Positions 728-63,021 of a stretch of DNA of 64,000 bases are shown one piece after another. The first letter of the stretch is position 1; every line of letters starts with the position of its first letter. The position numbers and the translations under genes were made by a program. Below the pieces are notes generated by a model. That model did no database searches, had not been told where the DNA came from, and saw only the letters and a program-made list of their open reading frames with translations. Source of the DNA: Acarospora socialis. Taxonomy: Eukaryota > Ascomycota > Lecanoromycetes > Acarosporales > Acarosporaceae. The stretch is from contig JAMYGW020000001.1 in NCBI GenBank assembly GCA_025617375.2, forward strand, positions 2,294,001 through 2,358,000. Direction: 5' to 3'.

Positions 728-3716
728 GTCACTGTGAGTATGTACTTTGGGTATTGTGGCTTGAGGAAGACAGAGCTTCCATGAAAGACTATCGCCAGGA
801 GATGCGGGTGCGTAGCGAAATTCGCCGCTGGTATGGCGAGCCGCTTTTAAGGTTTCTTGAGGATATTGATAGACAGCTGTCTCTAAACCAGATGGTTTAT
901 CCAAGAGACTCTGAATATCAGATTGAAATTCAAGTCAAGTGTGTTGGGTGGTGGGATTGGCAAGAGGCGAGGCTCTCCGATGCCCGCGGGGCAGTTATCA
1001 AGAACGAATTGTTAGAAATGACGCCGTCGCAATGCTCCGTTCCCGTGAGTCTGTGGACCGAGCAATTCAACGAGTCTGCCACAGCGTGTTATGAGAGGCA
1101 GGAAGCCAGCAACTCGAAAGGTCGGGGCTTACCTGGGTAAGATGCTCGATGTTATGCGTGATAGGTCGAGTTATGCAAAAGCGGCCTGTTGCAGGCAACC
1201 GGTGCGAAAGGAAAACGACAGACAGTAAACGACAGATGTGGGATAGCGCAATTGATACTCGAGCGTCAATGCCTTTGTCTTTGTATGACAGCCTCGTCGC
1301 CCAGTTTCTCGGGTGCAGAGCGAGTGTGTTGTAGCAAGGCAGTAGATCTTACACTCCGTCCGGTAGGTTACGGTGGTTGCAGCCGAAGTTGAGCGTCAGA
1401 TGCTGCTAGGTGCTTTTAGACGACCAACCCCAAGAACTGGCCAAAGTATATGGGCGAGCAATGAAGTCTGGAGAAATGGATATAAGCGCTGCTTCGACCC
1501 AGGGTCCCTGAACTAGAGGATATGTGTAGTAGCGGACGGCTATTCCCACTCTAACTGTGAGTAGAGGATTGCTTTGGCCTTTGGGTGGGAGTGGGAGTCT
1601 GATCTCTGCTTTGAGAGCGCGGGCCTGGTTGCTCCAGAGTACTACCAGCTTAACGAGAACGAGAGTTCGCGCGGACAGCGGACACAGACCACCAGTTGAA
1701 GGTCCAACAATCCCTTTCGAAACTTGCAGTGATAATTATTGATATCGAAGTTGGAGCCTGCCTTCTGATTTATTAGGCTGGTGACCAGACACAAGAGGTC
1801 GAGGGCAGAGCAGTGTCTTCGCCGTTGAGCGTTGACGTTACCAGAAAGGCTGGGCTTTGGTTGTCAGACTTGAGCTGCGAGTTTCCGCCGCGGTCGAAGA
1901 TGGTTGGACGCTTGAGCTTTGTCCGACTGAGGGCCGCCTTCAATCGGTAAGGTAAGGTAAGGAAAGGAAAGGATAGTAAGAAGCAACAGCAGGGGAATGG
2001 CAATCGAAAAGGAAGATGGGATTGAGTAATGATCAATCAATTGATGAATAGAGATGATTTCGAATCATGAGCTGAGTCCGAATACCAGGTCCGATTCCAA
2101 GCACAAAGTCATCGGCATTTATTATTGCTACTGATACTGATGCTGAGACTGATATTGCCTGTCGTCGGTCGTTCCTGGTACAAGTACGCAATATTCAAAA
2201 CCTTACAATACCAAACCATACATCGGATACTAGGCCATGCGAAGTACAGCAGCAGCAAATGAGCCGGAGGAAGCTTTCTACAGTCTACTCCTTGTCCCAA
2301 TGGCCGCTACGGCATTGGGTCACCTGCTTCAGACTGCGCTGTGTTTTACTTCAGCACAGGACTCCCGTATCTACATGCACGATACCCATAATTTTACGGC
2401 AGGGAATATCCAACTAGGACTCCGTATCTGCTTTTCTATTCGAGCAGTTGCTGTGTTCATCACCATGATCTTTTGAATCGGGTCCGTTCCTTCGTCCCTT
2501 CGTTCGTTTGTTCGGTGCAGGTCCTGAAGACAGCCAAGAAAAAGCAGAACTCCGAGGGTGGGTCATCCACGCACGCAAGAGACAGCTTGGTACATTGCAG
2601 CAGTAGCGGCGGCGGCGAGTGGCAAGCATCAAGCCTTGATCGCGCAGAGACTTCGGTAGCCAGGCAAGTCAGCGAAGGCTTGAGAGCTGATTGGTATCGC
2701 TTACATGAGGCATCTGGTGGTGGTGGCGCGGTTAATTCTGCTCGGTCTGCGATCAACTCCACTCACATCGAATCAATCCCCAGCCGGTCTCATCTTGCGT
2801 GCAGAAGAAAGGCTGCTGAGCGTTGGCGTCGAAGGTTAAAAGGTTAAGCTTGCCTTAGCGGCAATTTAATCGGAGGTGTTCATCTGAACAGAACAGGCCC
2901 TTTGGTTCCTTTTCCTCGGCCGTTTGGATTGCTGTGATTGTGTTTCTGGGCAGGTATGAAATTCTAATCTCTGCTGCATGATGTTAGTCCGTCACCTAAA
3001 TCTTCGATGTCCAGCTGTATTTTTGATTTGTCGTACTCCGCACTGTTCCTGGGTGTAGAGAGCGCTTGAACCTTAGAGGCCTGTATGCTGCATAGGCATG
3101 TGTAGTTCATGTCGAATCTTCTATACTGCGTAAGGGGTGATGCAGGCCAGGGGGAGGGCAGGATTCCACGAGATCTGTGACGAAGCCGTTTTTTCTGCTG
3201 AATATCTGAAACGTGTGCAAATAGAGGTCAGTCTTGCATCAAATTGTGTATGTGTGATCAATCTCGGTGATAGTTGGACAGCTACTCTTCCCTTAGCACT
3301 TACCATCAAATATACGGAGTACAACGCCAGTACTCCGTAATATCTTCAAGGTTTCTGCGTCTATTTGGTCCTTTGCTCATCCTCATTTCGGTTGAGTGAC
3401 AATGTTATGGCCATCTTACCTGGGTAGACGGCGACGGGACCAGAGCTCTCGCTATGTTTCGGCAGCATAGATAGCCACACCGGTACGAGTAAGACTGCTC
3501 CTCCCATATAAGTACTTTTGTATGGAGTATATCAAATATACGGTTGAGATGCCACTGACCGCGGAACGCCATTTGTCACGGCAGCCACATGGGATTCTCA
3601 GCCTTCATCGGATCAGCACGCCGAATCATTAACCGCCACAGCCGCTGCTTCTTCGGCTGGTAACAGAGTACTCATCCTCCTATTTTTATACGTCTGTCAG
3701 CATCCTGGCTTTCAAC
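728..3716. other. Long region upstream of the C2H2 gene; no supported gene
   Basis: Nearly 3 kb without a credible gene. Open frames up to about 128 codons occur on both strands, but none shows a recognisable domain or spliced continuation. A purine microsatellite (ggtaag/gaaag units) lies near 1947-1975. The proximal part probably holds the promoter and a long 5' leader of the minus-strand C2H2 gene, as is common for fungal regulators; the distal part grades into the element-rich patch. Confidence 0.5.
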
Positions 3717-59583: not shown

Positions 59584-60540
59584 GAGAGATGAAGGCCCGG
59601 TTGGATTGGGATGGGTTATGAGGGCATGAAGTTTATGTAGGTTGACGGGCAATGCAACGGAGACTCTCAGTCATGATGTGGTTCTGCGGTTGTGATATTC
59701 CTTGGTTACATAGGTGGGTGGACGTATTGAGGGACGGGCGGGTATCTCTGTCTTTGTCTTTGGAGTTTCGCGGTGCTGTTGATGAGGTGTACTGTAGGCC
59801 TTCCATATGAGGCTACGTGGAGTGATGGCCATGTCTTGTATCCTTGGCTATTTATCGTGAGCTATCGGGGACTCAAGAGAGATCAATCTAGATTGCAGAT
59901 GTGTTGAGAACAGCTGGAAGAGGTCGGATGCAGGGTAGGGTAGTAGAAGATCGTACCGAGTGGCAGTTGAGGCATCTTTCGGCTTCCGTACCTGGCCCCG
60001 TGGCTCTCAGGGCAACAAACCGCCGCCACGCGGATTTCTAGGACTCGAGTATCCCACATGTGAACCAAGTTCAGCACAGATATGTGGTTGAGGAATTCCA
60101 TCAATGTATCGCTTCTATGGACGAATACATACGTCAATAGTCGATTTACTACTCGAGTTTTCTTTTATGTGGCGACAGTTTCTCACCCTGAGCCTCGCCT
60201 CGCCCCTCACTGTGGTTTCAGACTTCAAAGCGACAATCGTTTCCTGAAGATATGTGGTCCATCACCAAGCTGTTGTGTAAGCCTATGTTTGCACTCACAC
60301 GTCCAGTAACACTGTATTTGCAGGGACAAGCATAGGATTAGGCTGAAGTAGCACATAAAAGTGACATTGAGCGATGCCTCAACACAGGCTTAGGTTTGGG
60401 GCCTTCATTATGGTCTAGGTGTCAAGTTTGATTCAGCTTGACATCCCTCAAATCATGCACGGTTGACATCAGTCTCTACTCTTCCCTTCAAAAGAATCAA
60501 ACCTCTGCAAAGTTCCCTGCTGTCTGGTTGAACTACAAGC
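59584..60540. other. Intergenic, nothing recognised
   Basis: 957 bases between the Zn2Cys6 gene and the pseudogene; no supported gene. Confidence 0.45.
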
Positions 60541-63021
60541 ATGGTTGCTCGGCGGCAATCAATCCCTCTTGCATCCCTGGACGATTCGAGCGCTGAGCGG
60601 TATGTCAAAAAACCTTCCTTCAAAGATCGTCGCTAACAAGCGTGGGGCAGCCCAGGAATAAATCAAAAACCTCTTCCTCAACTGCCCTATAGCTGGACAC
60701 GCAACTTTTGCACCTAATCTACTTTCGTACAAGGGACATTATGAGCTTAGGTTTTCATCCTTGTAAGGTTTCCTAAGGTATGGACTGAAGAGAAGTTCTG
60801 CTTAGCATAGCTGGTTCAGTGTAAGAATAATAATAATAATAATAATAATAGCTGGACACGAGTACGTCACGAAACGAGCTCGTTCATCCGAAGCACCGGC
60901 CTTGGTATCATCGTCAATACCTTTTCGGGCCTCAGGAAAGACTACACCGAGCCAACAAAAGTTGCTGTGACCAAGAACCGAGTCATCGCTCTTCTGAGGT
61001 CATTGGTTCACATCGTCCCGGTTGCGATTGCTCTAACGGAGATCATCATCAACTGGAGTGGACGTTATGTCGATACAGATTTTGATGAACAAGCGTACTA
61101 TCAGTTAGCTGCGAAAGTGCATGAAGTTACCATACACGCCTCATTGGCAACGGTGGTTCTATCATATATCCGGCACGCGCTTGTGTCTGATAATGGATTA
61201 CCGTTTGGGGCCCTTCTTGGTGGATCGCAGTTCCTTCAGTTCAGCTACTTGTGGTCAACTGAATTTTTGTCATCAATCAGCTCAATCGATGTTCCTTTGA
61301 GGAAAAGATTATCTCTGCTCGTTGTGATTGTCACTTGTGGCCTGTTAGCTGCTACAGTTGGCCCATCCAGCGCAACGTTACTTATCCCACGACAGGTGGT
61401 CTAGCCTTTACCAACTTCGCGCTTCTCCATAAGCGGACAATTTCAAGATGTCTGGCCCGATCAAGTCGATAGCACGAAGGTTCTTGAAAGTTGTTTGATG
61501 TTGCAAAGTTCGGACACCAGATCGCGGTGTCCTGCGGGTGACTGGCCCGAGATCCGCAGTATGTTCAACAGCACTGCGCCATCTGATACGCGGGACACCA
61601 ACAACAGTATCGAACCGGTTGTCTGGACCCTTGATGATGCCGGGTCTGGGGCGAACAAAATGTCGCAATACCAAGTGTGTCAAAGCAGTCAGCAAGATCA
61701 GATTTGTGGCACCACTGGGCAATCAATAGTTTTGGAAGCGACTTACGGAAGTTTTATGGACCACGAAGCTCGAGTTAACTGGGATTGGACTACTCATGGC
61801 CATGGGTATGGAATCAAAGCTGGTTATTTTCAGCCGTATACTCTGGCCAGCTGTGTGTCTGATACAGTTACGGAGTCCACCAAAGAACTTCGTTTCCCTC
61901 GCATATCCGAAACGGAGTCAGAGCTTAGGCAGGATCGAGTGATCATTCCTGTTCCCAAATATACAAAGACACAGGTACTTCAGACTCTGGGCAACCCCTC
62001 TGAGTATCGCTTACAGTGGTTGAAACTACCTCAAGATCTTTTCGATGATAAACTTATCGGAGCACTGCTGTTACACCCTCAAAAGTCAACCTCCGGACTG
62101 CCGCTCAATATAACGACCTGTACTCTGGGTGCAGGCTGGGGTAGTTCAGCCGTGGTGAGAAATCCAACCACTGAGGTTCCAATGGTGTTCTCCAGTCAGA
62201 TGGCCGACACGCCAAAATCATGGCCTGTCCATAACATGAAAACATTGGACACAATTAATAGCAGTCCTGACTACGCAAATTTGTCTGGGTTCAGTTACCC
62301 TCAACGCCGAGTTGATATCTCAACTAATTGGGCAGAGTTCCTCAATCCAATCATAATAGGGAACAACCATTACAACTCGACGGCCATAAATCCAGTACTC
62401 GCTGCAACCTCAGAACCATTGCGTGAAGCCAAAATCGCACAGGTTCTGACTACAATGCTCACCACTGGTTTGGCAAGAAACGGTATGGAACTTGACTGGC
62501 AAGGTACTCTACTTCACAGCTTGCAAATTTCACTTATGATGACTTGCTGACTTAGTTCAGTTATCCAGGGCAACTCACGCCATGTGATGGCTGCTTAGTG
62601 TTTGAGGTAGAGCACTCTACTTCAGGCTTCGCATACACCCTTCAGGAAACCACCACTAAACTGGCAATCGCTGTTATGATCACGTACTGTGCCCTCGCCC
62701 TTGCACACATTCTCTACCTCACGATCTTGGGTGTCAGCAGCAATGCCTGGGACACGACTACTGAAATTGTGGCGCTAGCAATGAACTCTTCGCCCACAAC
62801 ACATCTTCAGAACACTTGCGCTGGTATATTCGGCATCCAAAACATTTCGAACCCCTGTTCAAATCCTAGTGACGAGTAAGGGCAGCGGTAAGGACGAGCA
62901 TCTGGAGTTGGTCTTCGGTGACGTCGAGGCAGGGGTTATGGGAGGAAGGTCACGACTGGGAATGAATGAAGAGTATGGAACGCTAAATACTGCTGAAGGA
63001 CAACATGGCAAGAGGGAATGA
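60541..63021 (+). pseudogene. Disrupted multi-pass membrane protein gene (insertion, stop and frameshift)
   Basis: Ancestral exons read as 60541..60599, 60651..62503 and 62569..63021. Intron 1 (51 nt) has a CGCTAAC branch site and GGGGCAG acceptor; intron 2 (65 nt) has TGCTGAC. The encoded product has a hydrophobic N-terminal domain (LVHIVPVAIALTEIIINW, LAATVGPSSATLLIPR), a large outer domain, and a C-terminal helix (AIAVMITYCALALAHILYL). This layout recurs in uncharacterised ascomycete membrane proteins. Three lesions are seen. A 146-bp insertion plus 13-bp duplication splits exon 2 at SWTR and brings a TAA at 60715. A TAG at 61402-61404 interrupts an otherwise continuous frame between QVV and PLPTSRF, where Trp is expected. 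Near 62838-62845 the frame shifts by one before KTFRTPVQILVTSKG; a 46-nt intron (62824-62869) is an alternative reading. Function unknown. Confidence 0.8.
60702..60847 (+). mobile_element. Retroposon-like insertion with 13-bp target duplication and (AAT)n tail
   Basis: 146 bases inserted in the coding exon, flanked by identical 13-mers ATAGCTGGACACG at 60689-60701 and 60848-60860. The insert ends in about eight AAT units (60826-60849). A target duplication of this size and a short-repeat tail are hallmarks of target-primed reverse transcription, so this is either a SINE or a 5'-truncated LINE end. A tRNA A-box-like 12-mer (TAGCATAGCTGG, 60803-60814) lies near the 3' end, not at the 5' end as in a standard tRNA-derived SINE. 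Removing the insert and one repeat copy rejoins YSWTR to VRHETSS in frame. Confidence 0.7.

Follow-up and report, generated by a model that had tools for sequence, protein, structure and literature searches.

A putative LINE 3' end inserted into an exon of Acarospora socialis, and the mutation pattern of its genomic relatives

The 64,000-nucleotide stretch of Acarospora socialis DNA analysed here (the window; contig JAMYGW020000001.1, positions 2,294,001 to 2,358,000 of the forward strand) carries a predicted gene whose second exon is interrupted by a 146-bp insert that appears to be the end of a long interspersed nuclear element (LINE). Coordinates are those of the 64-kb window, and the genome searched was the organism's own assembly (31.15 Mb, 38 contigs). 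The insert lies between the two copies of an exact 13-bp direct repeat, ATAGCTGGACACG, at a spacing of 159 bp (Table 1). This 13-mer has no further occurrence on either strand of the window and is the only one in the 64 kb that repeats at that spacing; non-simple 13-mers recurring within approximately 100-400 bp number two, ATAGCTGGACACG and one other. The insert ends in (AAT)8, whose last AT overlaps the start of the right repeat. As these two bases of the 13-mer are assignable to the (AAT)n tail just as well, the duplication measures 11-13 bp. Insert plus one repeat amounts to 159 bp, a multiple of three, and the predicted exon structure, read through into the insert, gives ...YSWTR-NFCT-stop. 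The original prediction had described this arrangement of a 146-bp segment ending in (AAT)8 between two 13-mers, with a stop after four codons, and all of its numerical statements that were tested hold. A candidate microhomology at the 5' junction (CACG) was dropped, as the family mostly carries CACT and the junction-adjacent base is mismatched. Rfam returned no match for 60500-61100 at E values up to 1.

When the flanks are joined without the insert, the upstream exon remains in frame across the junction, given the predicted donor and acceptor of intron 1. A protein search of the genome with the downstream exon part identified four relatives. The closest of these, L074, has 595 residues in an open frame that is uninterrupted at the insertion point. 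A tblastn comparison of L074 with the window yielded 245 identities in 561 columns in one frame (60853-62514) that runs through one TAG. The alignment begins at W26 of L074, just past the left repeat. The residues before and at the junction, which the window encodes upstream of the insert, are QKPLPQLPYSW, against RKPLPRLPRGW in L074 (7/11 identical by position). This paralogue thus reads on unbroken at the place where the window is longer by 159 bp. This supports the earlier view of a continuous exon and speaks against the intervening sequence being a normal intron of homologues, since the closest paralogue in this genome lacks it. The host gene appears to carry at least two lesions: the stop in the insert and an in-frame TAG (61402-61404) in the frame aligned to L074. 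Pfam gave nothing over threshold for the host gene pieces and two paralogues, and a suspected resemblance of the gene to DUF3176 received no backing from Pfam searches.

At least 35 other copies in the genome have the insert's 3' end, as determined by DNA search and a 22-mer scan. The DNA search returned 34 further long matches. With up to 3 mismatches allowed, the 22-mer from the 3' end occurs at 36 places including the window, and the reversed control gave 0. Family counts below are based on 34 copies that were fetched with 1-kb flanks (36 hits minus two duplicates). They leave out the 36th place, L090, which is 83% identical to the insert across 133 bp and remains similar for approximately 1 kb upstream. 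AAT-type repeats, some of them imperfect, stand at the 3' end of all 34 copies. The insert is therefore not unique but belongs to the AAT-tailed family to which the original prediction had pointed.

Upstream, similarity extends beyond window position 60698 in 34/34 copies. Eight of the 34 break off upstream, each at a different distance (296-1013 bp) from the 3' end; L081 and L092 are truncated farther upstream, and four long copies (L078, L079, L080 and L091) have approximately 4.81 kb in common. The first 709 bp of one long copy, used as a query, located 34 places including itself, 30 of which start in its first 7 bp. The element is thus approximately 4.8 kb long, constant at its 3' end and truncated to varying extents at its 5' end. 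Because the 34 copies extend upstream, four of them to approximately 4.8 kb, the window insert is the 5'-truncated 3' end of a LINE, lying in sense orientation with the host gene.

The long copies retain traces of an endonuclease (EN) and a reverse transcriptase (RT). Read through its stops, L078 encodes an endonuclease domain (PF14529, E = 4.6e-6). Between 1691 and 4600, the endonuclease frame holds fewer TAA and TAG codons than the other two frames in L078 (21 versus 43 and 45) and L079 (23 versus 51 and 40). It is narrowly the stop-poorest in L091 (18 versus 30 and 22) and is not the stop-poorest in L080. A read-through profile of the second open reading frame (ORF2), built from three copies, was aligned by hhalign to a LINE with EN and RT from the same genome, with a probability of 97.3 and E = 1.8e-11 over the RT. 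The majority line of this profile holds what we take to be the FADD box. Judging by its motifs, the element may be Tad1-like. An open reading frame with EN and RT can be traced in the long relatives and not in the insert itself; the insert and its family otherwise display the common 3' end with variable 5' truncation, the simple-repeat tail and the target-site duplication of LINEs.

Table 1. Features of the interrupted gene and its insert (window coordinates).
Feature	Position	Strand	Basis
Exon 1 (predicted), phase 2 at its end	60541..60599	+	ATG frame MVARRQSIPLASLDDSSAER continues into exon 2 via acceptor 60650
Intron 1 (predicted), GTATGT...CTAAC...CAG	60600..60650	+	Donor 60600, CTRAY 60633, AG 60649-60650
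Exon 2 upstream of the insert (predicted), ending in the left duplication copy	60651..60701	+	Reads PGINQKPLPQLPYSWTR; likeness to paralogue
Left copy of the 13-bp target-site duplication	60689..60701	+	Exact repeat
Inserted 146 bp, putative 5'-truncated 3' end of LINE family, sense with gene	60702..60847	+	Homology to 35 other copies with common 3' end
(AAT)8 tail	60826..60849	+	Sequence; overlaps right repeat by AT
Right copy of the 13-bp target-site duplication	60848..60860	+	Exact repeat
Exon 2 resumed, homologous to L074, ending at in-frame TAG 61402-61404	60861..61404	+	tblastn
Remaining paralogue-homologous region, same frame, past the TAG	61405..62514	+	tblastn with L074

Candidate duplications around the copies were scored with transitions allowed and compared against 156 mismatched pairings. 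No mismatched pairing scores as high as the duplications at the window insert, L009 and L024. Several observations weigh against the LINE assignment and the insertion it implies. The duplication at L024 is AT-rich and partly tail, that at L041 is borderline (7 of the 156 mismatched pairings score equally high), and no target-site duplication was found in 9 of 12 other copies tested. Lost duplications are not surprising in AT-rich, heavily mutated DNA, yet they are missing. The endonuclease score of L078 lies just below the Pfam cut-off, and PF14529 was not matched in L079, L080 or L091, so that it is found in one of the four copies that cover this region. RVT_1 of Pfam was unmatched in all five copies scanned, and a PDB search with the ORF2 profile gave no match. 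The empty site, furthermore, is known from the paralogue L074, not from an allele of the same locus. The protein of the other LINE of this genome, compared by tblastn with four long copies, gave nothing significant (best E = 0.29).

The short length, simple-repeat tail and duplication of the insert would also suit a short interspersed nuclear element (SINE) or another non-autonomous retroposon of approximately 150 bp. We give this reading scarcely any credence, as related sequence continues upstream in all 34 other copies, four of which reach a common 5' end at approximately 4.8 kb, and the 22-mer scan added nothing to the window and the 34 except L090, a copy that likewise extends upstream. 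An introner-like element or a normal spliced intron would account for a length of 146 bp and for an AG at 60850-60851 that is in frame with exon 1. It would be expected to recur as GT-AG introns in genes, but each of the other 34 copies examined is the 3' end of something longer, and in 33 of them the 3' flank has only 17-29% G+C; the insert does not start with GT, the duplicated 13-mer has an AG and no GT, and L074 is open at the insertion point. An intron is therefore very improbable.

The same AG bears on whether the gene could still function. The original prediction had proposed a cryptic rescue through a new acceptor at 60851, and splicing from 60599 to 60852 does preserve the frame with exon 1. 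The rescue itself did not stand up equally well. No CTRAY occurs in the 100 nt upstream of the new AG, the nearest lying approximately 130 nt away at 60714, whereas the native branch-point-like CTAAC (60633) and the native acceptor are intact, and the TAG at 61402 would end the protein even after a rescue splice. Rescue is formally possible and on these signals unlikely, and we think it highly improbable that the gene still functions in this way. This leaves a LINE 3' end that would have been placed in the exon by retroposition, as originally suggested, a suggestion that the common 3' end, the differing 5' ends and the EN and RT traces of the long copies bear out. The window thus holds an ordinary LINE insertion, confirmed here and resolved to the base.

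The insert differs from its relatives in a systematic manner. In a 122-bp aligned core, with the window copy as reference against the 34 others, 544 of 574 differences are C to T or G to A as seen from the window. The CpC doublets of the window are kept in 4 of 340 instances across the 34 copies and its one CpG site in 0 of 34, while CpA is kept in 392 of 510 (77%) and CpT in 629 of 748 (84%). The exon copy is the only unmutated one among these 35. Across both strands, three of the 4.8-kb copies contain 0 CpG, 0-2 CpC and 593-684 CpA, and the fourth, L091, has 2 CpG and 3 CpC in 4,811 bp. At a GGG site, GG has been lost in 33/34 copies with several different end states, as would be expected if the copies mutated independently. 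Position 60813 shows one change in CpA context that is common to all 34 and more plausibly descends from a single source copy; not every difference need therefore be an independent event.

We interpret this pattern as mutation resembling repeat-induced point mutation (RIP) in an unusual context. C-to-T change on both strands of repeats, typical of RIP, is present; the CpA preference of RIP is absent, most CpA being kept. Four copies of another repeat family (L086-L089), with a decayed RT, a mutual identity of 83-86% and no match to the present element, contain 0 CpG and 7-42 CpC, versus 418-444 CpA. In the material examined, CpG is nearly absent and the loss of CpC is graded. As a side observation, two repeat families (L078/L079/L080/L091 and L086-L089) are near-empty of CpG and variably of CpC, with CpA kept. 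The genome also contains three regions resembling cytosine DNA methyltransferases (PF00145; L082-L085, at C3:855595, C2:1420221 and C8:614409), which are candidates for the RID/Masc1-type methyltransferase of RIP. The region at C3:855595 has a sub-threshold BAH match and matches PDB entry 9bap with 642 bits; no BAH match was found in the 665 residues scanned of the region at C2:1420221.

Two explanations may be considered for the unmutated state of the exon copy. At 146 bp it is by far the shortest copy, followed by copies of 296, 361 and 408 bp, and it may have escaped through shortness. It could instead be young, having been inserted after the others were mutated, from a source copy that is absent from the assembly. 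In favour of youth, its two 13-mers are identical; all nine positions at which the window differs from at least 30 of the 34 are C to T or G to A, with no change private to the window; and the same genome contains another LINE that has long open frames and has suffered far less mutation. Youth requires an unmutated source copy, however, and all 34 others are mutated, the nearest being 93% identical. Differences other than those of RIP type are few in most copies (none in 18/34; 6 in L041, 4 in L029p and 4 in L038), so that a much greater age of the other copies is not evident. We regard youth as possible but somewhat doubtful.

Escape through shortness is our first choice and youth its rival, and one copy cannot decide between them. 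Some points count against shortness as the cause. It rests on a single unmutated copy, and the copies of 296-408 bp, all fully mutated, are inside hypermutated blocks or border on them, so that mutation may have leaked in. L014 (361 bp) is fully stripped even though CpC and CpG reappear less than 100 bp beyond its 3' end, but its 5' side lies in largely mutated DNA. Position is a further variable. CpC and CpG together amount to 187 and 212 per kb on the two sides of the exon copy, and no other copy among the 34 has more than 70 per kb in both flanks. The exon copy is the only one of 35 with normal DNA on both sides; being also the shortest, it confounds position with length.

We propose the following course of events, which as a whole we hold to be very probable. 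Target-primed reverse transcription would have copied the RNA of a LINE at a nick in exon 2. An early stop of copying would have left a 5'-truncated copy, consisting of the final 146 bp of the approximately 4.8-kb LINE, its AAT tail and 3' untranslated end, and 11-13 bp of the exon would have been duplicated. The gene would then have been cut by the stop four codons into the insert. RIP-like C-to-T hypermutation over the family may subsequently have removed nearly all CpC and CpG from the 34 other copies. The exon copy would have been spared, most likely since 146 bp is too short for repeat recognition, and having been spared it would preserve the unmutated sequence of the LINE 3' end.

The unmutated exon copy can serve as an internal control, as it supplies the original sequence against which the context of mutation in 34 relatives is read site by site. 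This reading gives a near-complete loss of CpC and CpG with most CpA spared, unlike textbook RIP. If short copies generally escape, the length limit of repeat recognition could be measured from assembled genomes without crosses. We tentatively speculate that the hypermutation recognizes a C or G after the cytosine, is near-complete and misses repeats of approximately 150 bp. Short genic fragments would then archive unmutated elements, and a limit between 146 and approximately 300 bp could be measured from one genome.

Elsewhere in the window, a second exact 13-mer repeat, ATCAAATATACGG, occurs at 3305-3317 and 3531-3543 around a 213-bp stretch. TACGGAGTA straddles the left edge of this stretch and TACTCCGTA lies inside it. 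A search of the genome with window positions 3250-3600 found a single copy.

The element resembles fungal LINEs in its common 3' end, simple-repeat tail, variable 5' truncation, duplication and EN/RT traces, and differs from them in that the long copies examined here are all dead. The genome's other LINE, found at L045 and similar loci, has a homologous RT by profile comparison. In contrast to the window element, it has long open frames, is CpG-poor but not CpC-poor, and ends in an AAAT rather than an AAT tail. The apparent 3' end of the L045-type LINE (L093, 440-461) reads AAGAATAA followed by AAAT repeats, and the window element (60823-60830) reads AAGAATAA followed by AAT repeats. The genome holds 29 RT loci (L044-L072), 21 of which have no stop in the matched RT; they are little mutated beside the dead family, with observed/expected ratios of 0.02-0.09 for CpG and 0.48-0.84 for CpC.

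RIP of Neurospora, like the process seen in all 34 copies here, changes C to T on both strands of a repeat family. In N. crassa, RIP requires a length of 400 bp or more (PMC10294615). This requirement fits the sparing of the 146-bp copy, whereas the copies of 296-408 bp, under or near that limit, are mutated here. The context order given for N. crassa is CpA>CpT>CpG>CpC (PMC5496416). A survey of 1,239 fungi reports a common CpA preference in RIP (PMC12543289), and RIP surveys describe CpA, CpT and CpG signatures (PMC4352252). Neurospora RIP thus favours CpA, while here CpC and CpG are near-completely lost and CpA is largely kept. For Rhizoctonia, Microbotryum and Tuber, C-to-T hypermutation with CpG among its targets is described (PMC4014442, PMC4352252); the passages on these fungi do not name CpC as a main target, and here CpC is a main loss too. 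For Coccidioides, a review names CpG and CpC contexts (PMC9409882), and the LINEs of that genus have an average of 28-31% G+C (PMC5872316). With this context already in print for Coccidioides, the pattern in A. socialis is not new in kind.
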